This document shows, in pieces, positions 1 through 64,000 of a stretch of DNA of 64,000 nt (position 1 is the first letter of the stretch; the number at the start of each line of letters is the position of its first letter). Where the stretch lies: contig CM077164.1 in assembly GCA_039583875.1 (NCBI GenBank), forward strand, positions 65,627,628 through 65,691,627, in the 5' to 3' direction. Origin of the DNA: Platanthera guangdongensis (Eukaryota; Streptophyta; Magnoliopsida; Asparagales; Orchidaceae). A program made the translations under genes and the position numbers. The notes below the pieces were generated by a model that ran no database searches, was not told where the DNA came from, and saw only the letters and a program-made list of their open reading frames with translations.

Positions 1-981
1 GAATTTTGAATTCCTTCTTCATTCAATGCTGACGGCCTAGAGAATAAGCAGCATTGAATAATTTCCCCAAATATCCCGTGGAAAAATGGCAGGCAATAAT
101 CCTGGAGAATATCCCAATCAATGCTCCTCTAACTGTTATATTCAGAGAATGTTAGATCATTGATTACCCAGGAATCATTGCAGTAATAATGGGGACAGGG
201 CTGGAAATGACTTAGTCTGTAATCGTCGAACAGATGACAGAAATCGTCGAACTAAGTCCACAGTTCGTCGAGCTGAGATATTGTGTTCGTCGACCAGACG
301 GCTTCTGTTCGTCGAGCTGAGTTCCATGATCGTCGAGCTGGAAACTAAACTGCTATCTCTTCTGAACTTTGCCTATTCTGTGTCTGAAGTTCGTCGAGCT
401 GGTAAATGTGTTCGTCGACTGTAGTTCAGTCTAGACTTAGAATAATTTCTGAATGAAAGTGTTGAAGTATAGAGTCCAGAATTCGTCGACCAGAGAACTG
501 GGTTCATCGAACTGAGACTACAGAACATAGTCTTGATAGAATGTTGTAGTAGTCCAAAGATTCGTCGACTAAAGAATAGAGTTCGTCGAGCTGAGAACTA
601 AGTTCGTTGACCAAAGTCTGATACTAAGGACTTAGAATATCTTGATGTTTTCTGACCATGAAGTGTTGTTGTAGTGTCCAAGCTTTCGTCGACCTGAGTA
701 CCAAGTTTGTTGAGCTCAGCTCAGAGAATTTTCTCTGAGATCGTCGAGCTGAGCACGACTATCGTCAACCTGAGTTTGACGAACATCGAAATCACTTTAC
801 AGAGTCTTGAAATCTTCTAAGTCTTGAGTCTCTAGTAGTCTTGTTGATAGCTGGTCCATGTGATATTGACTCTAAGGACTTTGCCTAGACTCTAGGATAT
901 AACTATGACCCTGGCTATACATTGTGGGTCACAAGATCATGAGTTAGTGAACCTAGCCCAAATCAAACTAGGGATCCAACA
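1..981 (-). repeat. Element A 3' LTR (partial)
   Basis: This stretch matches the right-hand LTR from about 10676 onward nearly base for base and ends in gatccaaca at 981, giving the TGTTGG start on the minus strand. The rest of the LTR (R/U5 end) is outside the window. Confidence 0.9.
224..790 (-). promoter_or_regulatory. TCGTCGA motif array in U3 of A 3' LTR
   Basis: More than a dozen copies of TCGTCGA or its complement TCGACGA, usually in the setting ttCGTCGAgctgag or tcgtcgaccaga, are spaced irregularly at roughly 20-60 bases. Several are decayed to ttcatcga or tcgttga, the changes expected from loss of methylated CpG. The intervening sequence is not repeated, so this is not a simple tandem repeat. 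The array lies in U3, upstream of the presumed TATA box of the LTR. Confidence 0.75.
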
Positions 982-994
982 ATCTCCCCCTATT
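982..994 (-). other. Element A polypurine tract
   Basis: The minus strand reads AAATAGGGGGAGA just before TGTTGGATC, the 3' LTR start. This is the usual plus-strand primer site of LTR retrotransposons. Confidence 0.85.
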
Positions 995-1176
995 TGGGTG
1001 AGGTAACTAACCACAGACTCAGACTTAAACTGAAAATAAACAAAGCAGAAAAAGCATATATCTGGCAGAGACAGATAACATATGCAGCAGATATATATAT
1101 ACATGAGCTTTGTTCAAAAAATATAAAGCAGTTATAAATAATGCAGAAAGATAAAAAGAGTTCAAAATCACTTCTT

Positions 1177-4034
1177 CTACTTCTTTTCCTTTGGCATTGC
1201 ATCCTTGCTCTTGTCTCCTGGCTTTGTAAATATTATTTCTATGTTAGGATTTGAAGCTTGCACACTGGTCATGGTCATGTCAGCAGCCCCTATAATCTTC
1301 AGAGATGTAGCCCTCGGGACAACTGCTTCTGGGTGCAACTTCATGTAGTCATCCACATTGAAAATCTTGTTAGCTCTATCAAATCTTTTAAGTTCCTCTT
1401 TCCTGTACTTTGACATGGTAGTATATTCAGAGGGATCCTTTCCTTCAGCTTTGGCCTTATTAATCAGAGAAAGGCCTACAAGTTCCTGGAACCTGGCCAT
1501 TCTAGCAGTAGTAGCTGTTTCAGGATCTTCAAAAGGAACAAGAGGAGAGGATGGTCTTTTAGAGCATTCAGCTGGTTGATTTTCAGTGGATTGTTATTAT
1601 TGTTGTTGATGTTGTTGCTACTGTTGATGTTGCTTTCCTGAAGAATATTTCATGTGCTGGCTGCTTTCATGATGAGATCTCCCTTGATGTCTTTGATATG
1701 TTTGAATAGGGGAAGATCTTTGAGAACTAGAACCTGAAGCACCAGCAGCTGGAGGAGGTGGAAGAGGTGGATCTTTTCTGTATCTATGAACTGGAGGAGG
1801 AGAGTATCTTCTGCTTTTCTTCCTCTCCTTCTACTGATTCTTGGACAGCCACATCCAAGCTGGTATCCCTTTATATGGTGTAATATTTTGAAGAATAAAA
1901 TAAGTAGTGTCATTGTTTGTATTAGGCTTAGGAGCAGGAGGAGGAGCTTTTCTTTTCTTAGATACTGGCTTCCTCTTTGGTTCATGATCAGATTCATCAT
2001 CATCATCCTCATCATCACTATCCTCATCATCAGATCTTTGAGGATTATCATATAAAGCATTCAGAGCCTTCAGTGCCTTAGCAGAAATGATAGGCTTATC
2101 AGGTTGAGAAGGAGCTTGAGCAGGAATATCAACAAGAACTGGAGGAGAAGCCATAGAAGAAGCTGGAGTGTCATCAACTCTGACAGTGCTTTCAGCAGCT
2201 ACCTTTTCCTCTTGTTGAATGTCAGCGAAGATCACATCATCTAGATCTGGCAATGGAGAGTCATCCATGACATAACTAGGAGCAGAAGAAAATGCTGAAG
2301 GAGCTGGAATAACTATGGGCTCAGGAACAGCAAAACTATCACTAAGTTGCTTTACAACTTGTGGACTTACTTGGGATGTATATGGTACAATAGCCAAGGA
2401 TTGCTCAGTAGTATGATCTGCTGTAAGACATTTCAAAACTGCAAATTCAAAATTCTTCAACAAATTCTCTAAATCAACTATGGGATTAATGATGAAATCA
2501 CCACCAGTAGTTATTTTCTCAGAGACTGACTCTTCCAAGTCCATGTCAGTATCAATAAGATTAATAAAATCAATATCATCTGTATCAATATAATCTGTAC
2601 AATCTGCTGCAACTATTGCTGCCTCTGCTACTGGAGCTGCTATTACTAGAACTACTGCAGCTTCATCATCAGACATCTCCCCCTACATGGTTTTAGTAAG
2701 ACCTGAAGCCAGGCCCCTGACTAAAGATGTGGCAGTAGTGAGGGCAGAGATCTGTGCAGATAGGGTAGTAATTGAAGTAGCAAGAGGTGTAATGGCCTCT
2801 GCTATTAGTGTTTTGAGAAGGGGAGTGAGGAGGGCAGTGAGAGAAGTAATTGTTGAGGTGTCCAATGGTGGAGTGGGAGATGGTGTTGCATAAGGTGTAG
2901 AAGTGGGAACTGTGGGAGGGATAGGAAGTGGAGCATCTAGTATGTGAACATCTGGAGTGGATTCATGTTGAGGGATGGTAGATGTTGATGAGGATGGATG
3001 GGTGACATCTTCCTTGTGGGTGTTTGGAGGAAAAGGGGAATTGGGAGGTGATGGTGGTATGTTGAAAAATGGTATGGAGGATAAAGGAGGAGGAAGTGGA
3101 TATGATGGAGGAGTTGGTGCTGGTGAAGCATGTGGTGATTCTGGTGGATTAGGAGGTTGAGTAGGGGATGATGGAGGTGTGGGAGAGGGATGGATTTGTG
3201 TTGCTGGAAGGGGGCTTGAAGAGATGGTGGTGTTGGATGAATCTCTTCAGTAAGTTGGGGAGTGTCTTTAACAGCCCTGGTGCCTTCAGAAGCTGGGGTG
3301 GAAGAGGTAGAAGCCTTGGATGGATTAGGTATGGTCCTCTCCCACCTGCCAAACAAGGCACAGGTAAGCCTTTTCGTGGCATTAATGAATATGGTCTGGG
3401 AGACCAGGGATTCAGCAGCCTTCTCCTTTAGGAAGATCCCTAGGATCCTTCCAAAACACACTTCTTTCTTATTATTTTTCTTCTTTATCAGATCAAAGAG
3501 GATCTGAGCCCAATCCACTTGCTTCTTATTTATCACTGCATACATGACCAAGAACTGATGCCTTGTGATGTAGTCATGGGCAGTATGCTTGCCAAGCAAG
3601 TCCTTCCCAACAATGTCTTCCAGAAACTTGTATGTTGCAGACAGATGTTTCTTCAACAATTTATTTGGGTTGTCACCAACATAACCCATCAGATTTAGCA
3701 TCATATCAAACTCTTCAGAATCAATTTCTAATTCCTCTTCTCCATTTGTCAAACCAAAGATTTCAGTTAAAATTGCGGGAGTTAAGGAAACAGTGTTACC
3801 CGCGATTGATCCCGTCATAGTATTGTCTTCAGAAGTGGATGAAGTATAGTCCCATTCTCTGATTTTTGTTCCTGCCAACTTTATCCTTGTAGTCATCAGG
3901 TTCTTCAAATTCTATTCTTCCAGAAGTTCCAGAATATATAGAAAGATTGGATCCGAGTGCTGGAACGATTCGAAGTCGACATCAAATCCGGTGTCAAATT
4001 TCATAGCGGCTAGAGCTCTTGCTGGAATCGCCAT
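1177..4034 (-). pseudogene. Element A extra (env-like) ORF, decayed
   Basis: I place the start at the ATG at 4034, which lies in one frame with the conserved part; a TAG at 3912-3914 now interrupts it. The order is: an N-terminal globular domain (about 3900-3350; it includes TEIFGL, AHDYITRHQFLVMYAV and ending LFGRWERTI), a proline/serine-rich linker reached after a frame change near 3250, a leucine-rich stretch (2865-2690), an acidic middle region, a run of Asp/Glu followed by the basic cluster KRKPVSKKRK (about 1990-1930), a Gln-rich segment with stops, and a C-terminal piece ending at 1177. The N-terminal domain resembles that of the extra ORF of element B2. No signal peptide or membrane segment is visible, so a true envelope protein is unlikely; a nuclear protein is the better guess. 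Sirevirus family members are known to carry an env-like ORF here. Function unknown. Confidence 0.7.
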
Positions 4035-4159
4035 GGAATCACCTGCAAAAGAGAGAAACGATGATCAAGTGCAAGAGAATAGAAAGCTCTGGACGGAGGT
4101 CGAAGAAAACCTAGATATAAGGTTTTCCAGAATATGAATAGACAAACTCCGTTCCACGA

Positions 4160-4420
4160 AAACAAAAATAATTCTTCGAACTGAGTTCGATGAAATGATT
4201 TAGAAGTAAATAATTCGTCGATCTCATCCTAAAGAATTGAAGACAATTCGTCGAGCACCGTTCGACGAATATCTTCTAAATCAAGTTCGTCGATCTCCGG
4301 TCGACGAAAATTATTTCACTCACAGAGAGTTCGTCGTCCTCTATTTGACGAAGATCTCTCAAACCTTCCCCGGTTCATCGAACTCTGTTCGACGAACTTT
4401 GGAAAATTCGTCGAGTGTAG
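4160..4420 (-). promoter_or_regulatory. TCGTCGA motif array between pol and extra ORF of A
   Basis: About ten copies of TCGTCGA/TCGACGA, some decayed, fill the gap between the original pol stop (4428-4430) and the extra ORF start (4034). The motif is the same one found in the LTR. A TATA-like stretch (cttatatcta on the minus strand, near 4120) follows the array and precedes the ATG by about 85 bases. The placement suggests an internal promoter for the extra ORF; that is inference. Confidence 0.55.
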
Positions 4421-4427
4421 ACAGAAC

Positions 4428-7400
4428 TTAAATTAAATCTTCTACATTTATCATTCCAAGCTGATTTATAAAGAATACATGATTTTTCTCATCCAGAGGT
4501 TAGGTGAATATATCAGCTCTTTGTAAATCAGTGTAGATATAGACAAGATTAATTTTGTTTTTGTCTACACACTCTCTAATGAAATGATGCCTAATGTTTA
4601 TATGCTTTGTCCTACTGCGATGGACTGGATTCTGTGCTATGGCTATAGCACTTGTATTATCATAAAGTAGAGTTGAATTATTTAAGTTAAGACCATAGTC
4701 TAGTAGTTGGTTTTGTATCCATAGCATCTGTGAGCAACAGCTACCAGCTACAATGTATTCTGCCTCAGCAGTGGAGGTTGACATAGAGGATTGCTTTTTA
4801 CAAAACCAGGACACTAATCTCATACCAAGGAACAGGCAAGTTCCTGAGGTACTTTTTTTGTCCACCCTGCATCCAGCAAAATCAGCATCTGAGTATCCAG
4901 TTAACTCAAATTCTGATTTTGTGGGATACCATAGGCCTAGACTAGGACAACCCTTTATATATCTCAAAATTCTTTTTAGGAAAATAAGGTGAGATACTTT
5001 TGGGTTCACCTGAAACCTAGCACAAAGGCATGCGAGAAATATGATATCAGGTCTACTAGTTGTGAGATATAGTAGGGACCCAACAATGCCCCTATAAAGT
5101 TTCTGATCTACAGGTTTCCCTGATGCATCAGAGTCAATCACAACATTTATAGCCATAGGTGTTTTCCTTGCTGAGGCATCAGCCATCCCAAACTTCTTTA
5201 TTAGCTCTTTAGCATATTTAACTTGGGAGATGAAGATGCCATCAGGGAGCTGTTTCACTTGCAGACCAAGGAAATAGGAAAGCTCACCCATGCTACTCAT
5301 TTCAAATTTGGAATGCATGAGGTCAGAAAACCTCTTGCACAATTTTGAATCAGTAGAGCCAAAGATGATGTCATCCACATATATTTGTACTAACAAGATT
5401 TGGTCCCTATGATGTCCAGTGAAAAGTGTTTTATCTACTATGCCTCTAATGAATTTATGCTCTAATAAAAAGCTTGCTAGGGTCTCATACCAAGCTCTTG
5501 GAGCTTGATTTAGACCATAGAGGGCTTTATGCAACTTGAATACATGCAAAGAATGAGTTGAAGAGACAAAACCTGGAGGTTGTTCAACATAAACCTCTTC
5601 TTTTACTACTCCATTAAAGAATGCACTCTTCACATCCATTTGGTAGACCTTGAATTTCTTGTAGGCTGTATATGCTAGGAATATTCTTATGGCTTCTAAC
5701 GTTGCAACAGGAGCAAAGGTTTGATCATAATCTATTCCTTCCTCTTGCCTGTAGCCTTGAGCAACAAGCCTATCCTTGTTTCTCACAATAACTCCTTGGG
5801 CATCAAGCTTATTTCTGTATACCAATTTGATTCCAATAACTGGGTAGTTTTGTTGTCTTGGAACCAAATCCCAAACTCTACATCTCTCAAACTGATTTAA
5901 TTCCTCCTGTATTGCAATGATCCAGTGGGGATCTTGCTCTGCATCTTGAATGGATTGAGGTTCAATCTTAGAGAGAAAACAAGCATGCATCACATCTTGA
6001 TTGAGTTGATGCCTTGTTTGTACACCTACTGATATGTCTCCAATCACTTGAGATCTTGGGTGATCCCTAAGTGTGACAAGATCAGTGGATGGAGTTGGTT
6101 GTGTAACAGTATTTAAAACCAATTCCTCTTGTGGAATTATGTTGGCTATTGGAGAAGAGTCAATCCCTTCAATGCTTTCTTCTTCACTATCTTCATTGAC
6201 TTGTGGAGAGGGATGAGTTGGAACCCCTTGGGTAAGGTTTAGGTCATCCAGCTTCTCGCACAAGTGAGGTACCTGCAGAGAGTTACTGGTAGAAACTTCT
6301 TTCTCCTTGCAATACATGTTAGTCTCATCAAAGCTTACATGAATTGATTCCTCAATTTTCAGTGATGATTTATTAAAGACCCTATAGGCTTTGCTTACTT
6401 GGAAATATCCTAGAAAATTTCCCACTTCAGCCTTACCCTCAAACTTTCTAATGTATTTTTTGTTGTTATTATGTATATAACAGGTACAACCAAATACTTT
6501 AAAATAGTTGATTTTAGGTTTCTTCCCTTTAAGCAATTCATAGGGAGTCCTGTTCTTTAGTTTGTGAATTAAGCTTCTGTTTAGGACATAGTTTCAGTGT
6601 GTACAACCTCAGCCCAAAATGTTAGTGGCATGTATGCATCAGCAAGCAATGTACCCGCAGCTTCAATGAGTGTCCTATTTTTCCTTTCTACTACCCCATT
6701 TTGTTAAGGATTTATAGGAGCTGAGAAGCAATGCCTGATACCTTCCTTCTCATAGAACTCATGCATAAGAAGAGACTCAAACTTTGTGCCATGATGACTT
6801 CTGATCAATGCAAAATGAGTAGAGAACTCAATCTGTATGGTCCTGAGAAACTCTGTAAGAACCTTGAAGGTATCTGACTTAGATCTCAGAAAAAATACCC
6901 AAGTGAACCTTGAGAAGACATCCACAATGACTAAGGTATAGGATTTCCCTCCTAGGCTTTGAACAACTATGGGTCCAAAAAGATCCATGTGTAGCAAATA
7001 CAAAATCTTAGGTGAATCACTTTTATTAATGGATTTGAAACTAGATTTAGTTTGCTTGCCTAATTGACAAGCCCTGCAAAGGCCTTCCTTCTTGTAGGGA
7101 CCAGGAGGTAGACCTCTAATAAGGTTGTCTTTAGATAGCCTAGCAATATTTTTCAGATTTACATGACCTAGTCTTTTATGCCATAAATCATTTTGGTTAC
7201 TAGTTAAATTAAGTAAACAGATATCAGAAGTGGCAGATAGAAAATCAACTAAGTATATGTTGCCTTGTCTATTTCCAATTAAAACAGGTTTGTTTCCTTT
7301 AGATGAAATAATACAAGAGCTAGAGTTAAACGTTACCTGACAACCTTCATCACAAAGTTGACTTATTGAGATGAGGTTATGTTTGAGTCCTCTTACATAT

Positions 7401-7612: not shown

Positions 7613-9733
7613 TTAAAAATTCCTGACCCAGGTTACCTTGGATCCTTTGTTTTGTTGATATGAAAAGCTGGATATAACTGAAAATTCTGGTTGGGATTTA
7701 TATCCTAGAGGGTGATATCTTCTACGTGGTATAACCCAATCATCTAGAGGATTAAAATCTTTTCTAGAATTATTTAAGTTGTCGTTATAGTTAAAATTTT
7801 GGTTAAGTCTTTCTGGGTTCGACGAATTTCTGTAAGTTCGTCGACCAGAGTTCGACGAATTGGGTTGAGATCGTCGATCTCTGCCCAGAGAATGAACATA
7901 TTCATTTTCTGTGCCGCACGTTCGTCGACCTTTGCTCGACGAACCATACAAAGTTCGTTGATCGCAGTTAGACGAATGATTATTATTGAAGTTTGCGTTC
8001 AGAGATCGTCATTCTAAGTTCAACGATCTGTTCCTATATCGTCGATCTGAGTTCGACGATAACTGCCGAACATTGTTATTTTTATCATTCTTCTGGTTTT
8101 TAATTTTGTACTTAGCTTCAATTTGTTCTAGAATTTTTTTAACCTTATTTACTTGTTCAGTGTTTTTCTTTCCTTTATCAGAGATAAAATTTACAGGTTT
8201 TTAAAGATGATTCCTTTGGATTAGGGTTGGTTCACTGGATGTGGCTCCTAATCCTAATCTGCAGTTATTTGTTCTAGCATTTACTATGTTGGTTATATCT
8301 AGCAATTTCAAACTTCTGCCATTTAATGATTCTTCTAATATCTTAGCTTTGCGAAGTTCTGATTTCCGAAAAGTAATTTGTCCATTTGCAAATTTAAGTT
8401 CACTTGATAGATTTGCATTTTCAAAAGTGATTTTATCTAGCTCATTCAATTTATATCTGAGAAGTTTGATTTCCTTCTCAGAGCTTATCAAATCTAAGCA
8501 TAAGTTTTTAAATTCAAATTTAAATTCATCAGATTCAAAATTATAAGATGTTATTACCTGATCTTCAGCTGATAGGTTTTCTTCATTATCAGATTCATCT
8601 GTATCTGATCTGCTACTGCTTGCATCAATTGCTATGAGGCAAACCTCCTTTGCCTTGGCCTCCTCTTCTTCTTCACTGGAGCTTGAAGATGTGGATTCAT
8701 CTTCTGTGTCACTCCATGTTTCAGCCACAAATCCTTTGTCCTTCTTTTTGTGCTTGCTGGAAGAGGGCTTACTGTAGTGCTTGCTTCTTGATTCCTTCTC
8801 TCTTCTTATTTCCTTCCTTTGATTTTCAGGACATTCAGACATTAAATGTCTTGGTTTCCTGCACCCAAAACACACTACCTCTTTAGTGGGGGGTTTTGTC
8901 ATACCTTGACTGGCTGTCATTTCTGGATGACTTCCTTGTGAAGTCTTTCCTTGCCATTTTGAAGAATCTCATGGCAAAGAGACTCATTAGCTCTTCATTG
9001 ACTATTGGGGCTTCAGTTTCTTCAGCAGCCATGAATGCAATGGATTGTTCTTTCCTTGCTAGAGGAGGAGTCCTGTGTTTGACTACTTCTCTGGACTTGA
9101 TTAGCTGCTCATAAGATTTGAGCTTTCCCAGGAGAGATTCAGTTGAAATCTCATTCAAGCTTCTAGCCTCTTTGATTGGCCAGATTCTGGTGTCCTATGA
9201 GCTTGGGAAGCACATTAGGATCTTGTCATTCACTTCAGTCAAGTTGATTTCTTTATCTAAGGTCCTTAGCTCACTGATGATGGAGCTAAGCCTGTTGTAC
9301 ATCACTTCAACAATTTCTGTCTCATCCTTCTTGAAGTTTCATATTGTGTGATGAGGTTTGATCTTCTATCTTTCCTCTCATCTGCTGAGCCAGCAACCAT
9401 TTGATTGAGTGAATCCCAGATTGATTTTGTAGAGGTGCACTCAGCCACCTTCTGAAATATGTCATCTGACATAGTCTGAGCCAATATGTTCATGGCTTTG
9501 GCATCATCAATCTTTGCTTTCTTCTGGGCTTCAGTCCACTCAGGTGGTGGGACTGCATTATTGCTGGAATATGTTGTAGATGCAAATGCCTGTGGGGGAC
9601 CTGTCAAAATAGAGTTGTAGATTTCTTCATCAATAAAGTTCATGTACAACTTGATTCTTGCCTTCCAGATGGCAAACCTATTAAGGTTGCAAACTGGAGG
9701 TCTGGTTCTTGCATAATCCTTGTTTTATGCCAT
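7613..9733 (-). pseudogene. gag: Element A gag, decayed
   Basis: The start is the ATG at 9733, about 90 bases after the primer site; codon 3 is now TAA. The N-terminal capsid-like part (KARIKLYMNFIDEEIY, then IWDSLNQM) is followed by a frame break near 9300-9160, a CCHC zinc knuckle (CFGCRKPRHLMSECP, about 8865), a Ser/Glu-rich segment, a coiled-coil stretch, and a Ser/Asn/Arg-rich C-terminal region (8070-7800). The C-terminal region is encoded by a TCGTCGA motif array. Stops lie at 8201 and near 8000. A TAA at 7613 separates gag from pol in the same frame. Confidence 0.85.
7818..8062 (-). repeat. TCGTCGA motif array inside gag coding sequence of A
   Basis: Around ten TCGTCGA/TCGACGA units or decayed forms lie within the C-terminal part of gag, where they encode Ser-Ser-Asn and Arg-Arg runs. 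The density is as high as in the LTR array, in a region that must also be translated. Confidence 0.65.
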
Positions 9734-10655: not shown

Positions 10656-10896
10656 CTGGGGAAATTGGTCTTTCGAATTTTGAATTCCTTCTTCATTCAA
10701 TGCTGACGGCATAGAGAATAAGCAGCATTGAATAATTTCCCCAACTGTCCCGTGAAAAAATGGCAGACAATAATCCTGGAGGATATCCCAATCAATGCTC
10801 CTCTAACGGTTATATTTAGAGAATGTTAGATCATTGATTACCCATTAATCATTGCAGTAATAATGGGGACAGGGTTGGAAATGACTTAGTCTAGAA

Positions 10897-11455
10897 TCGT
10901 CGAACAGATGACAGAAATCGTCGAACTGAGTCCACAGCTCGTCGAGCTGAGATGTTGTGTTCGTCCACCAAACAGCTTCTATTCATCGAGCTGAGTTCCA
11001 TGATCGTCGAGCTGGAAACTGAACTGTTGTCTCTTCTAAACTTTGTCTATTCTGTGTCTAAAGTTCGTCGAGCTGGTAAATGTGTTCGTCGACTGGAGTT
11101 CAGTCTGGACTTAGAATAATTTCTGAATGAAAGTGTTGAAGTACAAAGTCCAGAATTCGTCGACCAAAGAACTGGGTTCGTCGAACTGAGACTAGAGAAC
11201 AAAGTCTTGAAAGAATGTTGTAGTAGTCCAAAGATTCGTCGACCAAAGAATAGAGTTCGTCGAGCGGAGAACTAAGTTCGTCGACCAAAGTCTGATACTA
11301 AGGACTTAGAATATCTTGATGTTTTCTGAACTTGAAGTGTCATTGTAGTGTCCAAGTTTTCGTCGACCTAAGTACCAAGTTCGTCGAGATCAGCTCAGAG
11401 AATTTTCTCTGTGATCGTCGAGCTGAGCACGACTATCATCGACCTAAGTTCGACG
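10897..11455 (-). promoter_or_regulatory. TCGTCGA motif array in U3 of A 5' LTR
   Basis: Same array as in the 3' LTR, with position-for-position matches. Individual units differ between the two LTRs by CG to TG/CA changes, showing independent decay after insertion. Confidence 0.75.
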
Positions 11456-11655
11456 AACGTCGAACTCACTTTATAGAGTCTTGAAATCTTCTAATTCTTG
11501 AGTCTCTGGCAGTCTTGTTGATAGTTGGTCCATGTGATATTGACTCTAAGGACTTTGCCTAGACTCTAGGACACAACTATGACCCTGGCTATACATTGTG
11601 GGTCACAAGATTCTAAGTTAGTGAACCTAGCCCAAATCAAACTAGAGATCCAACA

Positions 11656-14914: not shown

Positions 14915-17902
14915 TGATTGATATTTTCACATCGGGTCCGAAAACTTTATGCGGTTAAAACTCCAAAAATTGGTGAGAATTCCAGCGGCTCCCCGGGCGG
15001 TTTATTTAAGGAAAAAGGCGGATTTGGTTTTCATTTAGAAAACGGGGCGTACGGCTTTATTATTTTGGATATAAAAAGATGAGATCGAGTTTTAACGAAA
15101 GGAGGCAAGTGCACCTATCGCGTGTAGTACATGATATTCTGGGGTGGAATATCAAGGTCGTATTATTCTTCGGGGTCGGTTCGATTATTTCTACTCTTCC
15201 CTGGAGGGGACTATTATTTTACCGATAATTATCTTGTCGGGATATTTTTTATATATATAAAAGAAAAAAGTAAGACAAAACAGAAAATGAAGGAAATAAA
15301 GGGGGAGCCGATGATAAGCTTAGCGCGACAGAATCGAATAAAATTTGAACTAAAATAAACTTTCAATAAAAAGAGATCCTAAATTTCAAATTAATTAAGG
15401 AGGAGACTAGGCCGTGGAGGTTCCACTAGAATGAGCTCACTTATCTCTAGGACTATCGCTCACCTGAACGCTAAGACTATTCGATCGAACGTTAGTCCGA
15501 CGAAGGGTTCCTCTTAACGCCCGAATTACGCTAGGAACCCCACTATTGAGTGGGGAACCCAATCCGGTAGAGTTGGCGCGCCTCCTCTCTCGAGGGTTAG
15601 TACAGAACTCTCTTTACCAAGGGGCGATCGGTCCATACGCACGACCTCTCGGCTAACTAGCGTATGGACTACAGAAATAGGGCCCACACATTGATTATGT
15701 GGTCCTACGCATCGTAAACCCTAAGCAAACCTTAAGTTAATTTAATTAATTAGAAAATAAGAACCTTTAATTATTGAAAGTTATTTTTTCGGTCCCAATT
15801 CTCTTTGATACTGAGGGCTAAGAACGGTTAGCCACTCATCGAAATGGGGACGGCAGGCGGTGAAAGCAATAAAAGGAAAGCAGTAAATAAAGCAGGAAAG
15901 AAAGCAGTAAAGGAAAGTAGTAAATGGAAACAGTAAATTGCAAGTCCTACTCAAACGAGTAGTACTGAAATGAAAGCAGTAAAGTGCGAGTCCCGACGCA
16001 AATACGTGGGCAGGAGAAATGAAAGCGAGTCCTACTCAAACGAGTAGGATAAAATAAATGCAATGCACGCACAAACTCAACAGAAATGAAAAACTCTCTC
16101 ACACACACTCTCGATAGTAAATTAAAAAACAACTCTCTCTACTGAATTGAAAACACACACACACTGCATAAAGGTAAAACAAACACACGCACTCGACATG
16201 AAAGTAAAATACGCATACACACACTCTACTGAATGAAATAAAAACAATGCGCCATTTAACTCTTAACGAGTAAGCGGAAATAAATGCGCACACATAAAAA
16301 ATTGCAAAAAACTAAGTTACCGAAAAATTAAAATAACTACATTTCTAACGCTAAAATGCTGTAGAAATGAATAAAAAGCTAAAATAACAATTAAACAGAG
16401 CAAAAAGTTTTGCAAATAAACGCAAAAATAGAAGTGCTTGAAAATTAAATCGAATACATTTCTACTGCTAGAATGCGGTAGAAATGAATAAAAAGAGGAC
16501 AGAAATATTAAAGGAGCAAAAGTTTAAAATGAAAATGAAAATGCTCGAAAAATTAAAACAACTATATTATCATTCCTATAACTTGATAAAAATGCTAAAA
16601 AAGTGTAAATAAAGTAAAAAAGAACGAAAACGTTAAACAACGTAAACAAGAAAATCTAAGTTAAAGAAAATTAAAAACCACTTTGAAAACATTTTTACGC
16701 ATTTATAGGAATGAAATAAAAGCTACAAAATTCTAAATCTAACCAAATTAAGTTACGAAATGAAAATTAAAACATAAAAAGTACAAGTTATTCTCATACA
16801 CGCACACACGGATATTAAAAGAACAAAAACTAAGTTAGAAAAAAGAAAAAAAAGAATGAGATTGCATAAAGAGAAGGCACATAGATGAAGTCCAAATCCA
16901 TAGAAAGGGAGAAAAACTACAAATTTTATTAATCTAAAAGGAGATTACAAAGCTAAAACCAAAAAGGAGAGGGGGAGAAAATCCCTTACATAGGCCTTGG
17001 AATCATCTAAGCAGCATTTCCCTTATACAAAATGGCCCAAAAAGTGGAACAGGATTACAAGGAGAAGGCTGGAATTTATAGACAAAAAATTTCACGGGAC
17101 ACGCCCTCAAACATGAGCGTGTCAGGGGGCGTGTCAGAACTATTCAAGATTCGATCTGGCAAATTGACGGCGTAGTTGACTTTGGGCTGGACACGTGTCG
17201 GTAACGCAGTGGTCACGCCCCAGGTCCTGGGCGTGACTATGGGCATGTCGGAGAGGTAGAACTGGGCGCGGGTTGCGTCGAAATGTCACCGCGCGGGTCT
17301 TGTCGGCCAGGTGGAGGAGTACACGCCCGTGTTGCATCTTGACACGAGCGTGTCGGGGAGGTGTCGACATTCGTCGAGCGAAAAATGTCGAGCACGTTTT
17401 CGTCGAGTCAGGTGGAGAAGTCACGCCCCAAGTCACGGGCGTGACTCTGGGCGTGTCGGGTTGTTCGACGTTCGTCAAGCGGAAAATGTCGAGATAGGAG
17501 CCTTGATCGTCGATCGGGAATGACACGGGCGTGGCGGGTTGGCTGACACGGGCGTGTCCCGTTGGTCGACGAACGTTGAGTGCAAATCGTCGAGCTTGCG
17601 TGACACGGGCTGGGGTCACGGGGCGTGTCATTGGACACGGGCGTGACGTCGGGCGTGTCAAGCTTTTTTCATCAAAAATTGCTGAGTTCACGCGATTTGA
17701 ACTGTCATGCCCTGGTCACGGGCGTGACCAACAGTACACGGGCGTGTACTTAACTTTTTTGCAATTTTTTCAGTAAACAAAAATAACTTAAGTTAGAACA
17801 AAAAAGAAGCAATTTATTAAAGAAACATATACAAAAATAACAAAAATAAATTAAAACAACTTATTTATTGCACATAAATATAGGTATATTTACAATTCAT
17901 CA
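14915..17902 (-). repeat. F array LTR2, shared by both units
   Basis: About 2.99 kb, TGATGAATTG at the minus-strand start (17902) and ...CAATCA at its end (14915). It serves as 3' LTR of the right unit and 5' LTR of the left unit. It contains the motif array at 17091-17745, two decayed copies of the CATTTCTACCGC hairpin near 16338 and 16455, AGTCCTACTC/GAGTAGGA inverted repeats near 15950 and 16025, and CA-rich low-complexity DNA at 16090-16230. Confidence 0.85.
17091..17745. promoter_or_regulatory. Mixed motif array in F LTR2
   Basis: GACACGGGCGTGTC-type units (many partly decayed) and TCGTCGA/GTCGAC units occur throughout, lying in the U3 end of the LTR. Confidence 0.65.
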
Positions 17903-25445: not shown

Positions 25446-25585
25446 TGTTGGGTACATTGGAAAATGTGTACCAGATTTGGAGAAGCCCCACCTAACTCAA
25501 TGATATTCATCAAGGTGTATTTGATGTGGTGTTGAGTTTCCATGTGCAAGTTAAGGAAATGAAAGAAAATTTTCTAAGTATAAGT

Positions 25586-26090
25586 GTCGACACTTGAGAA
25601 GCATTGTGTCGACACATGAGAAAGACTATGTAGACACCATGAGTCAGTTTGTGTCGACATAGAGGACTTGTGTCGACACACAGAATGCTCAGTCGACAAC
25701 AACTGTGTCGACACATAGAACTTGTGTCGACACACAGAAAGCTCAGTCGACAATAACTCTGTCGACACACAGGACTTGTGTCGACACATAGAATTATGTC
25801 TACAGCAATTTTGTCGACACACAGGACTTGTGTCGACACACAGAATTATGTCTATAGCAATTGTATCGACACACAGGAATTGTGTCGACACATTCCAGAA
25901 TTGTGTCAAGACAACCACAATGTCAAGACAAGAAGTATTTGTGTCGACACACAGGACTTGTGTCGACACACAGGACTTGTGTCGACATATTTTACAGGAG
26001 CCGTGTTAAGAACATTAAAGTGTGCTGTGTCGACATTATGGGAGCTGTGTCGACATCACCAAGGATTGGGTCGACACATAGTCTATTTAT
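25586..26090 (+). promoter_or_regulatory. TGTGTCGACACA palindrome array in U3 of B1 LTR
   Basis: More than fifteen copies of TGTCGACA, most with the longer palindrome TGTGTCGACACA, lie about 15-35 bases apart, with intermixed decayed units such as tgtctacag and tgtcaagaca. Spacers such as caggactt recur, giving partial tandem structure. The ORFs that cross it, with repeated CRHT or STHRT, are products of the repeat and not genes. Confidence 0.8.
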
Positions 26091-26254
26091 TTTGACACAT
26101 TTAATGGAATGTCTCGAAACTTTGCTGACTGAGACAAAGTATAATGAAGTAACTGGTGACTTGATAGCTGTCATGACCAACAAGGCTGTTGCATCTGTTA
26201 CTGCTGTCAGAAGGTTGTTATGAACAGGATCAGCCGGTAACCTTGGATGAAGCC

Positions 26255-44558: not shown

Positions 44559-44694
44559 GCTTCATTCAAGGTTACCGGCTGATCCGATTCATAATAACCT
44601 TCTGACAGCACTAACATATGCAATAACCTTGTTGGTCATGACAGCTGTCAAGTCACCAGTTACTTCATTATACTTTGTCTCAGTCAGCAAAGTG

Positions 44695-45315
44695 TCGAGA
44701 CATTCCTTTAAATGTGTCAACACAAATAGACTATGTGTCGACACAATCCTTGGTGATGTCGACACAGCTCCCATAATGTCGACACAACATAATTTAATAT
44801 TCTTAACACAGCTCCTGTAAAATGTGTCGACAAAAGTCCTGTGTGTCGACACAAATACTTCTTGTCTTGACATTGTGGTTGTCTTGATACAATTCTGGAA
44901 TGTGTCGACACAAGTCCTGTATGTCGACACAATTGCTATAGACATAATTCTGTGTGTCGACACAAGTCCTGTGTGTCGACACAATTGCTGTAGACATAAT
45001 TCTGTATGTCGACACAAGTCCTGTATGTCGACATAATTGTTGTCGACTGAGCTTTTTGTGTTTCGACACAAGTCCTGTGTGTCGACACAGTTGTTGTCGA
45101 CTGAGCTTTCTGTGTGTCGACACAAGTACTGTGTGTCGACACAGTTGTTGTCGACTGAGCTTTCTGTGTGTCGACAGAAGTACTGTGTGTCGACACAGTT
45201 GTTGTCGACTGAGGTTTCTGTGTGTCGACACTAGTCCTGCGTGTCGACACAAACTGACTCCTGGTGTTGACATAGCCTTTCCCATGTGTCGACACAATGC
45301 TTCTCAAGTGTTGAC
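44695..45315 (-). promoter_or_regulatory. TGTGTCGACACA palindrome array in U3 of B2 LTR
   Basis: More than twenty TGTCGACA-containing units, many with the full TGTGTCGACACA. The segment 45030-45250 is a partly regular repeat with unit tgtgtcgacacagttgttgt followed by cgactgagctttc. Longer than the B1 array by additional units. Confidence 0.8.
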
Positions 45316-45455
45316 ACTTGTACTTAGAAAATTTTCTTTCATTTCCTTAACCTGCACATGGAAACTCAACACCACATCAAATACACCTTGATGAATATCA
45401 TTGAGTTAGGTGAGGCTTCTCCAAATCTGGTACACATTTTCCAATGTACCCAACA

Positions 45456-48477: not shown

Positions 48478-48549
48478 GGGGGATGAGTGAAATTTTGGAT
48501 TAGGAAGAGGAAGAATTTGTCGAAACAAGGATTTTGTCTCGAGAATTTG

Positions 48550-48918
48550 GAGAGCGTGTCGACAGGGGTTGTTTTCGACCTATTTATATATTTCTAGACA
48601 CAGAAGGTCAAAAGGCGCATTGAAATAACCTTAATGTGTCGACACTGTTGAGATGGTGTCGACACAGACTACTAAGTTCTCGACATGGGTATTTACTACT
48701 ATGTGTCCACACCAAACTTAGTGTCGACAGAATGTTCTTGATGTGTCGACACAATTTACTTCATGTGTCGACACCAAGCTAAGTGTCAGAAATTCTCTGT
48801 GTTGACACCAAATTCTAAGTGTCGACAAAACGTTCTGGATGTGTCGACATAACTTTCTTGAAGTGTTGACACCAACTACTAAGTGTCGACACAAACTTCT
48901 TCATGTGTCGACACAGAA
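48550..48918 (-). promoter_or_regulatory. TGTGTCGACACA palindrome array between pol and extra ORF of B2
   Basis: About fifteen TGTCGACA-type units, mostly TGTGTCGACAC, fill the gap from the pol stop at 48941 to just upstream of the extra ORF. Spacers differ from those in the LTR array, so it is not simply a copy of the LTR. Read from the extra ORF, this is where an internal promoter would lie. Confidence 0.65.
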
Positions 48919-48940
48919 TTACTTAGTCAAATTTGTCATT

Positions 48941-52395: not shown

Positions 52396-54044
52396 TGTAA
52401 CACCCCCTATCCGTCATATAGCATATAGCAGTAGGTCCGGCCGGGGCCCGACGTCATATACCACGGACAGACCGGGTGGTTACTCAATGGAAATCATCCA
52501 ACCAATCACAACATCCTACACAGAGCATTCTAGCGGAAGCAGTTTAAATAGTTGCAATTAAAAGAACCGAGCAACAAGCATGAATGTCCACTAACAAGCC
52601 AAAAAGGAATGAAGTACATACACAAGTACTGGCCTTAAGGCATTACAAATGGTTTACTCATATTACATGTTTTCCATACCACGGCACGCAGGCCGGTCAT
52701 ACATGAACAAAAGCAAGTAAAACACTCCAATTAGGCCTTCGCGGGCCGGCTTCGCAAATTGGGCTTTAGCCCGCTATTGACTGCTTGGTCCAGCAACACC
52801 TGCAAGCAACAAACCACCGCACGGTGGAAAACAAAGGCAACGGTCAGCAATGCTGACCAAATTATAACGATCCTGCCCCCAAAATTGGGGCAGCGATGCT
52901 CCTTCCCTGCACTTTATTAGTATAACCAAGCAGTATAGTAAAGTCACTACATCACAGGCGTAGGCTCACACGGCCACACACCCCATGCACTCAGGGTACA
53001 TTCTTGGAGAACCGGTCGATGTCACGTCAATTTAAGCCATAGACATTCCGATCTCACCGCCGCCACTTTGACGACCAAACTATGAGAATTTTGTCTTCCC
53101 GGCATGGGTCACGTCAATTTAAGCCATAGACCGCCGAAGACCCTCATCTATGCCAACGGCTCTAACCGAACGACATATAACGGGTACGGTTCCATCTGAC
53201 CCGTGCTCACATCGCAACGATAATTTAATCCATATGCGTAGGTCAAACTTCTCCGAGTCCCGTTTCCGTCACACACTTCACATAACCCGGTTATGTTCAA
53301 GCTGGCTCCCAGGCCACCAAGTTGGCAAGATCACGTATCCACCCAGTTTTCCGGGTGCACCTTAGGGTTAATCCCCAAGGCTCCCTGTTGCAATCTACCA
53401 CGTAGAAAACCCAAAAAAACAAACATTTGCACGGAGTATTCTCTAGCATTTATGCAATGCAACATCACCGATCCAGACCAACATGTCCGGAAAGGCTTCA
53501 CACATCATGCATATGTTCGTTCTCAATTACGGACTCTACAAAATGGGGACTTCACATATCTACCCGAAGGAATGCCTCCAACTCACCGCAAACTCGCGAG
53601 AGCGGGCTTCCTATACAAAAGAAGGAGAGCTTCACATGCTCAAGTAGAGAATCGTTACCCTAGCGTTCTTCCTTGGCGCCATGGAAATGAACGCGGATGT
53701 AAAGCACCGCAATCTCCTTGCCTTCGTAGATCCGAAGTTGGCTCGCGATTTGGAGCTCTGAAACTCCTCCAATGACTAGATCTAGACTCCTTCTTCCTCT
53801 TTTGCTCTCCCCTCTCTCTAAGATTTAGACAGAGAACCACATAGAAGAATAAGGGTTTTGAAACCCTGTACTAGGGTATAACCCCATCGGGAAATAACCA
53901 CAGCCGTCGGATCCCACAAAAGGGATGCACAGATACAATCCAGGTCCGACCTGGACAAATGGGGCTAAACACCGCACGAATCACCAACAGGAGCAGGACA
54001 CGTCCGCGTCAAAATAGTGTCTGAACAATTAGTCAACTCCCGCC

Positions 54045-54362
54045 AAAACCCATGTGTCGACACTTTGCGTCGAGTGTCAAATATGCCACATAACGTCCCG
54101 CGCTCGACGATCGTCGAACACTGCCAAAACGTCGATCCCAGATCACTGGCCATTCATCGAACGAAGATCGCTGGCCATTCATCGAACGAAGATCGTCGGC
54201 AATTCGTCGAATGAAGATCGCTGGCGATTCATCGACCGCAGAATGTCGACAATTTGTCGACTGCAGAATATCAACAGATCGTCGACCCCAGAATAACGAC
54301 AGATCGTCGACCGCGGAATTGTGACCAGATCGTCGACCGCTGCTCGACGATCGTCGAACCCA
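54045..54362 (-). promoter_or_regulatory. TCGTCGA motif array in D 3' LTR
   Basis: Units such as ctcgacgatcgtcgaac, attcatcgaacgaagatcg, agatcgtcgaccgcagaat. Partly regular: attcrtcgaacgaagatcgctggc repeats at about 27-base steps (54150-54235), and atcgtcgaccgcagaat at about 20-27-base steps (54235-54350). Same core as the Copia element A. Confidence 0.7.
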
Positions 54363-54410
54363 GAAAACTGCCTGATCGATTTGCCAGATCTTTGAACTAT
54401 CCCGACACGC

Positions 54411-54446
54411 TCTGGGACACGCCCGTGTCCCAGGCCGTGTACCCCT
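54411..54446. promoter_or_regulatory. GACACGCCCGTGTC-type unit in D 3' LTR
   Basis: gggacacgcccgtgtccca followed by ggccgtgta: the C/F-family motif occurring about once, between the TCGTCGA array and the LTR start. Confidence 0.55.
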
Positions 54447-54508
54447 GCCAAATTCCAAATTTGGTACAGAACACCTCCCGTCGCTCTTTTGAGTTTCGGG
54501 GCGTTACA

Positions 54509-59157: not shown

Positions 59158-59158
59158 T

Positions 59159-61284
59159 TGTAACACCCCCTATCCATCACATAACATATAGCAGTACGTT
59201 CGGTCGGGGCCCGATGCCATATACCACGGACAGACCGGGTGGTTACTCAATGGAAACCATCCAACCAATCACAACGTCCTACACAGAGCATTCTAGCGGA
59301 AGCAGTTTAAATAGTTGCAATTAAAAGAACCCAGCAACAAGCATGAATGTCCATTAACAAGCCAAAAAGGAATGAAGTACATACACAAGTACTGGCCTTA
59401 AGGCCTTACAAATGGTTTACTCATATTACATGTTTTCCATACCACGACACGCAGACCGGTCATACATGAACAAAAGCAAGTAAAACACTCCAATTAGGCC
59501 TTCGAGGGCCGGCTTCGCAATTTGGGCTTTAGACTGCTATTGACCGCTTGGTCCAGCAACACCTACAAGCAACAATCCACCGCACGGTGGCAAACAAAGG
59601 GAACGGTCAGCAATGCTGACAAAATTATAACGATCCCGCCCCCAAAATCGGGGCGGCGATGCTCCTTCCCTGCACTTTATTAGTATAACCAAGCAGTATA
59701 GTAAAGTCACTATATCACAGGTGTAGGCTCACACGGCCACACACCCCGTGCACTCAGGGCACATTCTTGGTGAACCGGTCGATGTCATGTCAATTTAAGC
59801 CATAGACATTCAGCTCTCACCTCCGCCACTTTGACGGCCAAACTATGAGCATTTTATCTTCCCGGTATGGGTCACGTCAATTTAAGCCATAGACCGCTGA
59901 AGACCCTCATCTATGCCAACGGCTCTAACTGAACGGCATAGAACGGGTACGGTTCCATCTGACCCGTGCTCACATCGCAACGACAATTTAAGCCATATGC
60001 GCGGGTCAAACTTATCCGAGTCCCGTTTCCGTCACACACTTCACATAACGCGGTTATATTTAAGTTGTCTGTCAGGCCACCAAGTTAGCAAGATCACGCA
60101 TCCGCCCAATTTTCCGGGTGCACCTTAGGGTTAATCCCCAAGGCTCCCTGTTGCAATCTACCAAGTAGAAAACCCGAAAAACAAACATTTGCACGGAGTA
60201 TTCTCCGGCATTTATGTAATGCAACATCACCGATCCAGACCAACATGTCCGGATAGGCTTCACACATCATGCCTATGTCCGTTCTCGATTACGGACTCTA
60301 CACAACGGGGACTTCACATATCTACCCGAAGGAACGCCTCCAACTGACCGTAAACTCGTGAGAGCGGGCTTCCTATGCAAAAGAAGGAGAGCTTCACATG
60401 CTCAAGTAGAGAATCATTACCCTAGCGTTTTTCCTTGGTGCCATGGAAATGTACGCAGATATAAAGCACCACAATCTCCTTGCCTTCGTAGATCCGAAGT
60501 CGGCTCGCGATTTGGAGCTCTGAAAATCCTCCAATGACTGGATCTAGACTCCTTCTTCCTCTTTTGCTCTCCCCTCTCTCTAAGATTTATACAGAGAACC
60601 ACACAGAATAATAAGGGTTTTGAAACCCTGTACTCGGGTATAACCCCGTCGCGAAAAAACCACAGCCGTCGGATCCCACAAAAGGGATGCACGGATACAA
60701 TCCAGGTCCAACCTGGATAAATGGGGCTAAACACCGCACGAATCACCAACAGGAGCAGGACAAGTCTGTGTCAAAACAGTGTCGGAACAATTAGTCAACT
60801 CCCTCCAAAACTCGTGTGTCGACACTTCGCGTCGAGTGTCAAACACGCCACATAACGTCCCGCGCTCGACGATCGTCGAGCCAAGATCATCGAACGCTGC
60901 CAAAACGTCGATCCCAGATCACTGGCCATTCATCGAACGAAGATCGCTGGCCATTCGTCGAACGAAGATCGCCGGCGATTCGTCGAATGAAGATTGCTGG
61001 CGATTCGTCGACCGCAGAATGTCGACAATTCGCCGACCACAGAATCTCGACAGATCGTCGACCGTAGAATATCGACAGATCGTCGACCGCAGAATTGTGA
61101 CCAGATCGTTGACCGCTGCTCGACTATCGTCGAACCCAGAAAACTGCCTGATCGATTTGCCAGATCTTTGAACTATCCTGACACGCTCTGGGACACGCCT
61201 GTGTCCCAAGCCGTCTACCCTTGCCAAATTCTAAATTTGGTACAGAACACCTCCCGTCGATCTTTTGAGTTTCAGGGCGTTACA
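59159..61284 (-). repeat. Element D 5' LTR
   Basis: About 2.13 kb, partner of 52396-54508. Motif array at 60818-61135. Confidence 0.92.
60818..61135 (-). promoter_or_regulatory. TCGTCGA motif array in D 5' LTR
   Basis: Colinear with 54045-54362, with one extra unit (cgagccaagatcatcgaac near 60880) and differing CpG losses. A decayed gacacgcctgtgtccc unit lies at 61192-61207. Confidence 0.7.
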
Positions 61285-62274: not shown

Positions 62275-62589
62275 TGTTGGGTATTGTATCCACACTAACC
62301 CAGATTTGATGAAGTCACCCTTGAACTAAGATGAATTAAGTTGTATTTGATGCTTGGTTTAAGTTATGTGTTTGCAGGATTCTAATGGGAAGTGTAGACC
62401 AATGTCAGTCCACAATGGGTCACCAAACATAGGACCATACAATGTAATCCCTCATTGTGTGTTCCAAAGTGTTGACTCATGTGTAGCCTCTCTATTGGGA
62501 TACACTTCATATTCAAGCTCTAGGACCATGTGAAAAGACTTGATGCTGGTCATCCCTTAGAAGAAGAAAATTCAGTCAAGAAAAATTTC

Positions 62590-63420
62590 CTAAGTAAAGT
62601 ACTCGAGTAGTTCTTTACATACTCGAGTAAGTTACTGAATTCATAGTTAAGTAATAATACTCTTACTCGTGTAGATAAGATGTATCCGAGTAGTTACATC
62701 AACTACTCGAGTAGTTCCCTTTCTTCTCTCTTATTTTACACGAATTATCTTCTAAATTTTTCTAAGTTAAATACTCGAGTAGTACTATATAGTACTCGAG
62801 TAGTTCTATCTTCTGTCTCGAGTAATTGGACTCTGACTCTCGTGTAGTTCTCACTTACTCGAGTAGTCTAAATCATATACTCGAGTAGTTCATCTACTAC
62901 TCGAGTAGTCCAGTGTTTATACTCGAGTAATCCAGAATCCCTTTCCAGAAAATTTCTCTAAGTGAATTACTCGAGTAGTTCATGTTATATACTCGAGTAG
63001 TTCCTTTTATCTCGAGTAGTTCATGTTATATACTCGAGTAGTTCTATTTGTCTCGAGTAGTTTATTTTTTATACCCGAGTAGTTCAGTTTTCCTGTTCCA
63101 GAAATTTTCTAAGTGTTTTTATCGAGTAGTTTCTGATATACTCGAGTAGTTCATTTTTATATACTTGAGTAGTATATCTTTTACTCGAGTAATATACTCC
63201 ACCTCTCGTGTATGTACTAAAGTACTCGAGTAAGCCATTTTTGTTACTCGAGTAGCTGAATCTATCTCATTCTTATTTACTCGAGTAGTTGACTCCATGT
63301 ACTTGAGTTATCATCTCTCTTTCTCCCGAGTAGTTTTTCTCATATACTCGAGTAGTCATCTTCTACCTACTCGAGTAGTGCTGCATATACTCGAGTAGTC
63401 CACTACATCTCGAGTAATTT
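62590..63420 (+). promoter_or_regulatory. TACTCGAGTAGT palindrome array in E LTR
   Basis: About thirty copies of CTCGAGTA, most as TACTCGAGTAGTT, at 15-40-base spacing, with variants such as ctcgtgtag and cccgagtag. Spacers are not repeated. The array stops about 120 bases before the TATA box. Confidence 0.8.
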
Positions 63421-63540
63421 ACTTTTACTTTTCAGAAAATTCTTCAAGTCCAGACTTAACGGTCATATTCATAAACTCAGACGTGATTGGTCCACGTGTC
63501 TTTCTCAAAATGACTCAGTTAAGTCTAATCTTTTCTGATC

Positions 63541-63549
63541 CTATAAAAG
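63541..63549 (+). promoter_or_regulatory. Probable TATA box of E LTR
   Basis: CTATAAAAG between the palindrome array and the presumed transcript start. Confidence 0.6.
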
Positions 63550-64000
63550 GTCTTGTCTAAACCGACAAACCCTAATTATTCAAAGATTATTCTAAGAAAG
63601 TTTTTGCAGCCGTACTCTCAAAAGCATTATGTCTCCTCTTTCTCTCTCCAAGAAAGAAACTCGCCGCCGCCTCCATCGCAGATTTCCGACCGGCTAGGGT
63701 TTCACCTTTTTGAGGATTCAGATCAAGAAGACTTTACAGATCGAGATGTCCGCTCAACACTTCATCTTCTAATTCGATCATGTAAAGTCAAGAAGTCCAG
63801 ATCTGATATTGCCAAGGTTTTCTTCACCATTCTGCTAAAGCCGAAAAGTCTAGAAGAAGAAGATCCAGGCCGATTTCTTGCAGATCTGACAAGGATTTAC
63901 TGTTTGTATTTCTGTACAAGTTTATTTCATTATTGTAGGAGTCGTTTTCTCCGAGTGTAGGAGTTTTCAACTCCGAGATTGTAGGAAGTTTTGCCTTCCG

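Follow-up and report, generated by a model that had tools for sequence, protein, structure and literature searches.

Paired CpG palindrome arrays in Copia and Gypsy retrotransposons of the orchid Platanthera guangdongensis, with the ORF3 protein as a candidate binding factor

Introduction

The closest described counterparts of the arrays considered here are the palindromic repeated motifs of the Sireviruses. In the portions of the study by Bousios et al. (2010) available to us (PMC2829016), such motifs are described from 13 elements, with a consensus for each, as lying in the long terminal repeats (LTRs) upstream of the TATA box and again before the envelope-like (ENV) gene, in association with CpG islands; they are treated as possible regulators, and the expression of ENV from an internal promoter is offered as a hypothesis. 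Here, we analyze a stretch of 64,000 nucleotides (hereafter the window) from Platanthera guangdongensis (assembly of 4.25 Gb in 274 contigs), which holds the nested LTR retrotransposons A, B, C, D, and F and one LTR of a family E. A and B have a Copia-type pol and appear Sirevirus-like by their domains, the extra open reading frame (ORF) after pol, and the form of their LTRs; we presume that the name of the Sirevirus lineage applies to both. F has a Gypsy-type gag-pol, D and F share TGTAAC...GTTACA ends, and we take both to be Tekay-like.

Anti-silencing of the VANDAL type (Mutator-like) has been described in eudicots. In the accessible portions of the work on its VANC proteins, the effect is strongest in non-coding regions and extends to an unrelated element, AT9TSD1 (PMC5735166, PMC10398659).

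The arrays of A and B belong to the known Sirevirus kind, a parallel already drawn in a first-pass annotation of this DNA. As far as the available text of PMC2829016 permits the comparison, they are likewise palindromic, present in at least eight copies per element (here 13-15 per LTR in A, 16-19 in B, and 20 in E), situated in the upper LTR upstream of the TATA box with extra copies before an ENV-like gene, and CpG-island-like. They differ in having no CGG-CCG core, which Tnd-1 also lacks, the cores here being TCGA, CTCGAG, and spaced TCGWCGA; moreover, whereas that paper calls the motifs Sirevirus-specific relative to classic Ty1/copia elements, here they are shared with Gypsy LTRs. Pairs spaced exactly to one base, a CpG-poor body, an in-frame gag-pol array, and sharing with Gypsy were not found in those portions. 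A literature search that did not include the 2016 maize palindrome paper also returned no report of the pair geometry, the CpG-poor body, the codon override, the Gypsy sharing, or a link between ORF3 and VANC, and some of these features may be in print.

Results

Arrays precede both the LTR promoter and ORF3

Every family named in the first-pass annotation carries a motif array above the level of Markov-1 shuffles (500 shuffles of the same stretch; Table 1), the weakest case being the array between pol and ORF3 of A, with a CpG observed/expected ratio of 2.19. The annotation had placed the arrays in U3 (the unique 3' region of the LTR); A and B carry internal arrays as well. The arrays start about 190 (A), 127 (B), and 321 bp (E) into the LTR, each ending before a TATA-like box, and such boxes lie downstream of the arrays in A (5'LTR, ~10641-10650), B (right copy, ~44552-44557), C (TATAAA, ~17075-17080), and E (TATAAA, 63542-63547). 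We further scanned 24 loci (numbered with L; L001-L004 overlap one another). In the Tekay-like LTRs, sorted into ends by ourselves, motifs of the three main classes were present at 9 of the 9 places read as U3 starts and at none of 9 opposite ends, which have one single CTCGAG; an extra pattern match in L014 was unrelated and had one motif.

Additional copies stand upstream of the ENV-like gene in all seven regions (window A, window B, L006, L008, L009, L014, and L023). In B, this array follows the pol stop, a TATATA (48585-48590) lies near its end with one motif beyond, and the ORF3 ATG (48477) comes 113 bp after the start of the TATATA. The same order recurs in the B-lineage elements of L008 and L014 (ORF3 64-67% identical), where the TATA and the ATG are separated by 105-106 bp. 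A-lineage elements (window, L006, L009, and L023) again have the array between pol and ORF3; L023 shows a canonical TATA in the stretch from the array to the ATG, and none is clear in window A, L006, and L009. The U3 and pre-ORF3 motifs are the same in window A, window B, L006, L008, and L014; they are also alike in L023, where U3 was placed by gag distance alone, no LTR match having been found. By their coordinates, the E-type arrays on contig C1 would have the same two-place layout.

The A lineage also has a linker array within the gag-pol frame, seen as SSNxDRR-like repeats in five copies, some with stops. This coding array (window 7815-8060, L006, L009, L021, and L023) yields an SR/RS-rich Gag segment, which as a protein perhaps binds RNA.

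The four motif classes occur 175 times in the window, and 171 of these occurrences fall in 17 zones covering 8,625 of the 64,000 bp; as the zones were drawn around the arrays, the figure shows clustering and not independent localization. The four copies outside (33907, 35191, 35369, and 35390; two TCGWCGA and two TGTCGACA) lie near a 232-amino-acid frame at 33561-34259 with no Pfam match. A de novo scan for 7-mers (at least six copies per 500 bp) returned 62 regions in the window and the 24 loci and none in one Markov-1 shuffle of each sequence; some of the 62 consist of A-rich words without CpG (e.g., window 13001-13600 and 14101-14900). Further copies of the D array lie at 27136-27620 and 37640-38110 (the first 900 bp of D have three M1, one M2, and six M3 words), and homologues of the C array at 11656-11900, 22800-23450, and 40100-40700. 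By eye, the array edges also show a recurrent AT-rich word, CAGAAAATTTTCTAAGT in form, both in A, B, and E and in related LTRs whose palindromes differ (window 25560-25600, 62570-62600, 63090-63110, and ~440-460 on the minus strand; L018 and L019).

Table 1. Motif arrays and ORF3-related frames in the window. Shuffle max, highest count in the shuffled stretches.
Feature	Position	Strand	Details
A 3'LTR U3 array, TCGWCGA	223..790	-	13 exact motifs, shuffle max 3; U3 start ~981
A 5'LTR U3 array, TCGWCGA	10895..11465	-	15 exact motifs, shuffle max 2
A array between pol and ORF3, TCGWCGA convergent N7 pairs	4170..4440	-	7 exact, shuffle max 5
A array inside gag-pol frame, SSNxDRR repeats	7815..8060	-	8 exact motifs, shuffle max 3
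B left-copy U3 array, TGTGTCGACACA	25580..26120	+	16 TGTCGACA, shuffle max 2
B right-copy U3 array, TGTGTCGACACA	44660..45325	-	19 TGTCGACA, shuffle max 2
B array between pol stop and ORF3	48540..48925	-	10 TGTCGACA, shuffle max 1
E U3 array, TACTCGAGTAGT	62598..63420	+	20 ACTCGAGT, shuffle max 2
C U3-like array, ACACGSSCGTGT with TCGWCGA	17150..17800	-	18 M3-type words in 16980-17903, shuffle max 2
D (Tekay-like) U3 array, ACACGSSCGTGT with TCGWCGA	30780..31260	+	15 M3-type words, shuffle max 3
F (Tekay-like) 3'LTR U3 array, mostly TCGWCGA	54040..54450	-	8 exact motifs, shuffle max 3
F (Tekay-like) 5'LTR U3 array, mostly TCGWCGA	60800..61230	-	8 exact motifs, shuffle max 3
A ORF3, PF20167-like; candidate DNA-binding regulator	2940..3911	-	
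A piece downstream of ORF3	1834..2682	-	acidic stretch, KRKPVSKKRK basic cluster, one hydrophobic stretch
B ORF3, PF20167-like	47689..48477	-	Pfam E 0.0012, below cut-off
B frame downstream of ORF3	46138..47070	-	basic clusters; no Pfam family at meaningful E-value

Motifs are paired at fixed distances

The spacers between motifs, first described as unrelated, do differ in sequence, but the spacing is regular: 18-22 bp is commonest for two of the motifs, and TCGWCGA displays exact geometries. Thus, TGTCGACA neighbors within 70 bp are 18-22 bp apart in 92 of 163 cases, and ACTCGAGT neighbors are 20-22 bp apart in 25 of 42. Across 267 kb, TCGWCGA pairs within 70 bp are 14 bp apart in 29 of 42 convergent cases, and pairs are 21 bp apart in 29 of 100 direct and 19 bp apart in 9 of 41 divergent cases, all three counts including LTR copies and hence not being independent. 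Genome-wide, with families pooled, TCGTCGA-N7-TCGACGA is found 258,569 times against 6 for its reversed control, and the N6 form 1,780 times against 11. The E-type pair TACTCGAGTA-N5-25-TACTCGAGTA has 128,764 occurrences (control 0), and among the matches listed, from one 21-kb part of C1, its spacing is 20-24 bp where 15-35 was allowed. Exact spacing together with varied spacers fits a rigid protein dimer and is not given by slippage alone. The observed spacings of 13-15 and 19-25 bp show a pair geometry rather than simple helical phasing in multiples of 10.5 bp. Secure instances in Gypsy LTRs are few: window F has one N7 pair (at 54330, in the 3'LTR) and one pair at 21 bp, and L019 has two at 21 bp. 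A TCGTCGA array in L010, considered as a further Tekay-like case, was rejected because only LTR-end matches and no LTR start were found; its four convergent pairs remain in the 29 of 42.

The arrays hold most CpGs of CpG-poor elements

The coding parts of the A and B lineages are nearly devoid of CpG. Window A has 7 in 3,762 bp of gag-pol and 5 in 957 bp of ORF3; window B has 1 in 3,108 bp of pol and 10 in 1,722 bp of ORF3 and the next frame; and L006 has 3 in 3,098 bp of pol and none in 693 bp of gag. The coding counts at other loci are 5 in 3,095 bp (L009), 5 in 3,072 (L023), 2 in 2,784 (L021), 0 in 3,107 (L008), 0 in 885 (L014), 0 in 1,002 (L012), and 6 in 1,924 (L018). The observed/expected ratio is 0.00-0.15 in A- and B-lineage coding parts against 0.75-2.19 in the arrays (formal island criteria not applied). 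Since the coding bodies of Tekay-like elements (0.84-0.93) and of three other Copia elements (0.60-0.80) retain CpG, the loss is lineage-specific. The arrays contain 117 of the 154 CpGs of A (1-11655, truncated at the window edge) and 42 of the 61 CpGs of B (43687-52394, excluding the part beyond F). Motifs with at most one mismatch make up 4.9% of A and 5.2% of B yet contain 106 of the 154 and 37 of the 61 CpGs, respectively; the CpG share in motifs of five other elements is similar. This layout agrees with a sunflower methylome, in which the central part of SIRE elements has strongly reduced CG and high CHG methylation in the portion of the report available (PMC12844716).

In the coding linker of the A lineage, CGN accounts for 57 of 71 Arg codons, compared with 8 of 213 elsewhere in gag-pol, and TCG for 49 of 92 Ser codons, compared with 0 of 383; in four of the five copies, the body frames have two to five stops and were counted unaltered, and the L021 linker and body come from two neighboring elements. 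The motif thus overrides the codon bias, and selection on the protein alone does not require these codons.

Motif letters also persist between families 68-70% identical: motif 6-mers are kept in 18/23 and 20/23 comparisons (B) and 18/24 (E) versus 16-23% of other 6-mers, while other CpG-containing 6-mers, many of them overlapping motifs, are kept in 75/132, 84/132, and 93/227. Because alignment programs are prone to match repeated motifs with one another, these figures should be read as upper estimates. D (24/46 and 25/46 vs. 21%) and F (6/19 vs. 35%, indicating turnover) were assessed likewise. Between LTR copies, CpG positions differ at 25 of 238 motif and 131 of 656 other sites, and non-CpG positions at 12 of 335 and 349 of 6,646 (Fisher p = 0.0009, five pairs pooled, with two non-independent positions per CpG; p = 0.003 in a stratified test of four pairs). 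Across three motif lists, A and B separate motif from other CpGs each time; F does so more weakly, and D weakly or not at all, with no difference when taken alone. The lower divergence of motif CpGs would be consistent with reduced methylation of, or protection at, the motifs.

Motifs are shared between superfamilies and turn over within families

The proposal that each family has its own motif array survives as regards array density but not as regards privacy: TCGWCGA also occurs in C, D, and F, and both it and GTGTCGACAC are present in Gypsy (Tekay-like) LTRs. F, grouped with C in the annotation, has mainly TCGWCGA (8 against 1 exact ACACGSSCGTGT in the 3'LTR). The word GACACGGGCGTGTC is found in six exact copies and three with the other center orientation, by position four C-type, four in D, and one in F. 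In a random sample of 20 stretches of 10 kb (the first 20 of 60 drawn; seed 7, contigs C1-C18), 16 have arrays of the described CpG words in our own perusal of the list. L016 has only AT-rich words and the non-palindromic CpG word AACGAAA (six copies), L018 has CACTCAA words without CpG, and L007 and L022 show no arrays in the 7-mer scan. The recurrent vocabulary comprises TCGWCGA, GTGTCGACAC, ACACGSSCGTGT, CTCGAG types, CGAGAATCAC...GTGATTCTCG, and GCGCACGA.

LTRs resembling E at their start (68-79%) have different palindromes: TACTCGAGTA in E, CGAGAATCAC in L005 and L010, and CTCGAG with other flanks in L019. F-type LTRs are 83-85% alike outside the array and differ inside it, the window F array having 8 TCGWCGA, 2 GTGTCGA-type, and 2 ACACGGGC-type words against 4, 12, and 14 in L012. 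As related LTRs differ and unrelated ones agree, the motifs turn over in related LTRs and recur in unrelated ones; within Sirevirus-like Copia elements, a motif type that follows lineage is supported.

As to whether the arrays are ordinary satellites elsewhere, many in the 20 random stretches lie in or beside LTR matches or before an extra ORF, but others are unassigned (L014:901-2000, L020:6101-6900, L021:4401-5400, L024, and others), so this check is not exhaustive. In L024, the segments 1-800 and 5883-6700 resemble a pair of LTRs (95% identical) and bear arrays of long palindromes, GCGCACGACCACTGGTCGTGCGC among them. L018:8250-9350 is an inverted-repeat array of TTGAGTGAA...TTCACTCAA, mostly without CpG, in which many units are followed by a TGGACTTAG-like word.

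ORF3 is a candidate regulator

In a predicted model, ORF3 may have a weak fold similarity to VANC21, so the parallel with VANC drawn in the first-pass annotation gains slight structural support. DUF1985 was absent from a Pfam scan of ORF3 and two relatives up to an E-value of 10. The B ORF3 model was too poor for use, with an uninformative Foldseek list, and a sequence search of solved structures found no relevant relative. B ORF3 is 58% identical to a Platanthera protein, and Platanthera zijinensis provides the best protein matches of the extra ORFs (58% and 70% identity). ORF3-like stretches also occur in a Platanthera protein (P0008) that carries the annotation homeobox-leucine zipper HOX32 and is probably a gene model fused across a retrotransposon. 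ORF3 may instead be an envelope protein: the A piece downstream of it has one hydrophobic stretch (Kyte-Doolittle 2.36 over 19 residues), in a part outside the L006 match.

As described in the accessible parts of PMC5735166 and PMC10398659, VANDALs likewise have short motif arrays in non-coding parts, with motifs that differ in related elements. They are, however, Mutator-like DNA transposons, whereas ORF3 lies between a Copia pol and the 3'LTR; VANC carries DUF1985, and the VANC21 motif, YAGTATTAY, is AT-rich and no CpG palindrome. Retand, in the available part of PMC11963269, also has an extra ORF, with a TRP28 domain, between pol and the 3'LTR, predicted to bind DNA, with repeat arrays in the same region; it differs in being a Gypsy element with antisense ORFs and with tandem repeats rather than palindrome arrays before a TATA box.

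Other features of the window

The C LTR is the insertion site of A, judged from the flanks of A. Element C (11656-23519) appears as an LTR-internal-LTR-internal-LTR tandem with a period of ~5.7 kb and no stop-free frame of at least 200 amino acids. An inverted repeat of ~184 bp (88% identical) occupies 33117-33300 and 33465-33647. Queries of viral contigs with pol gave no matches, and the Rfam and tRNA scans were both empty.

Discussion

We favor, with a probability of roughly 45%, the reading that the arrays are sites of a dimeric protein, most likely ORF3 acting in a VANC-like manner, and that Tekay-like and C elements exploit it. The arrays themselves, their geometry, placement, CpG distribution, retention, and sharing are observed; from these we infer protein binding, the service of two promoters, a role in methylation, and the identity of the factor. 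That a trans-acting factor is involved, as first proposed, is supported by the two-fold symmetry, the one-base-exact pair spacing, retention across diverged families, the override of codon bias in coding sequence, and the position before TATA boxes. The arrays would be the bulk DNA recognition sites of such a dimeric, sequence-specific protein; in Sirevirus-like Copia elements they would lie upstream of both the LTR promoter and an internal ORF3 promoter, and hence one factor would switch both. As the arrays hold most CG sites of nearly CG-free elements, CG methylation or protection from it would act almost only there. The ORF3 protein would then be a VANC-like activator or anti-silencing protein binding its own motif arrays, while Tekay-like and C elements, with the same sites and no such ORF seen here, would use it in trans. 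Strictly family-specific activation, as originally envisaged, is unlikely because identical motifs, equally spaced in the few cases checked, recur in Gypsy LTRs and across many families. The fullest form of the proposal, in which the Sirevirus envelope-like gene encodes a nuclear VANC-fold dimer that activates or un-silences both promoters through the element's own arrays, the element has lost nearly all other CG sites so that CG methylation is contested at the arrays alone, and Gypsy elements without the gene have evolved the same sites to use the factor, seems less likely than not.

The sharing of motifs by unrelated superfamilies, with a few pairs at the same spacing (window F and L019), could also reflect one or a few dimeric host transcription factors on which Copia and Gypsy elements have converged, lineages differing in the factor used and ORF3 being unrelated to the arrays. 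We regard this as a real though tentative possibility. It accords with the mixed U3 arrays of Tekay-like elements, in which three motif classes coexist (4/5/10 in L009 and 4/12/14 in L012), and with the available portions of the 2010 paper, where a PLACE comparison gave mainly stress-related sites and the motifs also occur in elements without ENV (PMC2829016). Yet with more than 250,000 perfect pair sites in one genome, titration of a host factor would be anticipated, the different palindromes of related LTRs suggest a turnover faster than such a factor would lead one to expect, and a host factor alone leaves the repetition of the array before ORF3 unexplained.

Two further accounts seem improbable to us. 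The U3, pre-ORF3, and linker arrays might act in the genomic RNA, as hairpins for packaging or dimerization or as small-RNA precursors: by inspection, TCGTCGA-N7-TCGACGA, CGAGAATCA...TGATTCTCG, and TTGAGTGAA...TTCACTCAA could form stems, and palindrome-rich LTR regions are small-RNA hotspots according to the available part of a paper citing maize work. However, CpG retention and placement before TATA boxes point to DNA, the listed 21-bp pairs of the A LTRs consist of half-sites in the same orientation, and GTGTCGACAC and TACTCGAGTA are gapless palindromes from which no stable hairpin is expected; with two motif types of this kind, we rejected a hairpin-only reading. Passive minisatellite growth, by slippage, with CpG kept through a chance lack of methylation and no selected function, would suit the true tandem repeats among the arrays (L014, alternating 13 and 21 bp) and the lesser divergence of motif CpGs between LTR copies. 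It is hard to reconcile with spacers that vary while their spacing is exact to one base, with the retention of 75-87% of motif 6-mers (vs. 16-23% of others, alignment bias being possible), and with the use in the coding linker of CGN and TCG codons that are nearly absent from the remainder of gag-pol.

With its strict pair geometry, its matched arrays in two locations, and a specific candidate protein, the proposal lends itself to a direct test by binding and bears on the role of the Sirevirus envelope-like gene and LTR palindromes. A nearly CpG-free body with CpG-rich arrays is a striking layout that predicts where CG methylation can act. Should the ORF3 protein prove VANC-like, anti-silencing of a sequence-specific kind would no longer be limited to Mutator-like DNA transposons but would include abundant LTR retrotransposons of this orchid, with mimicry of its sites between superfamilies.

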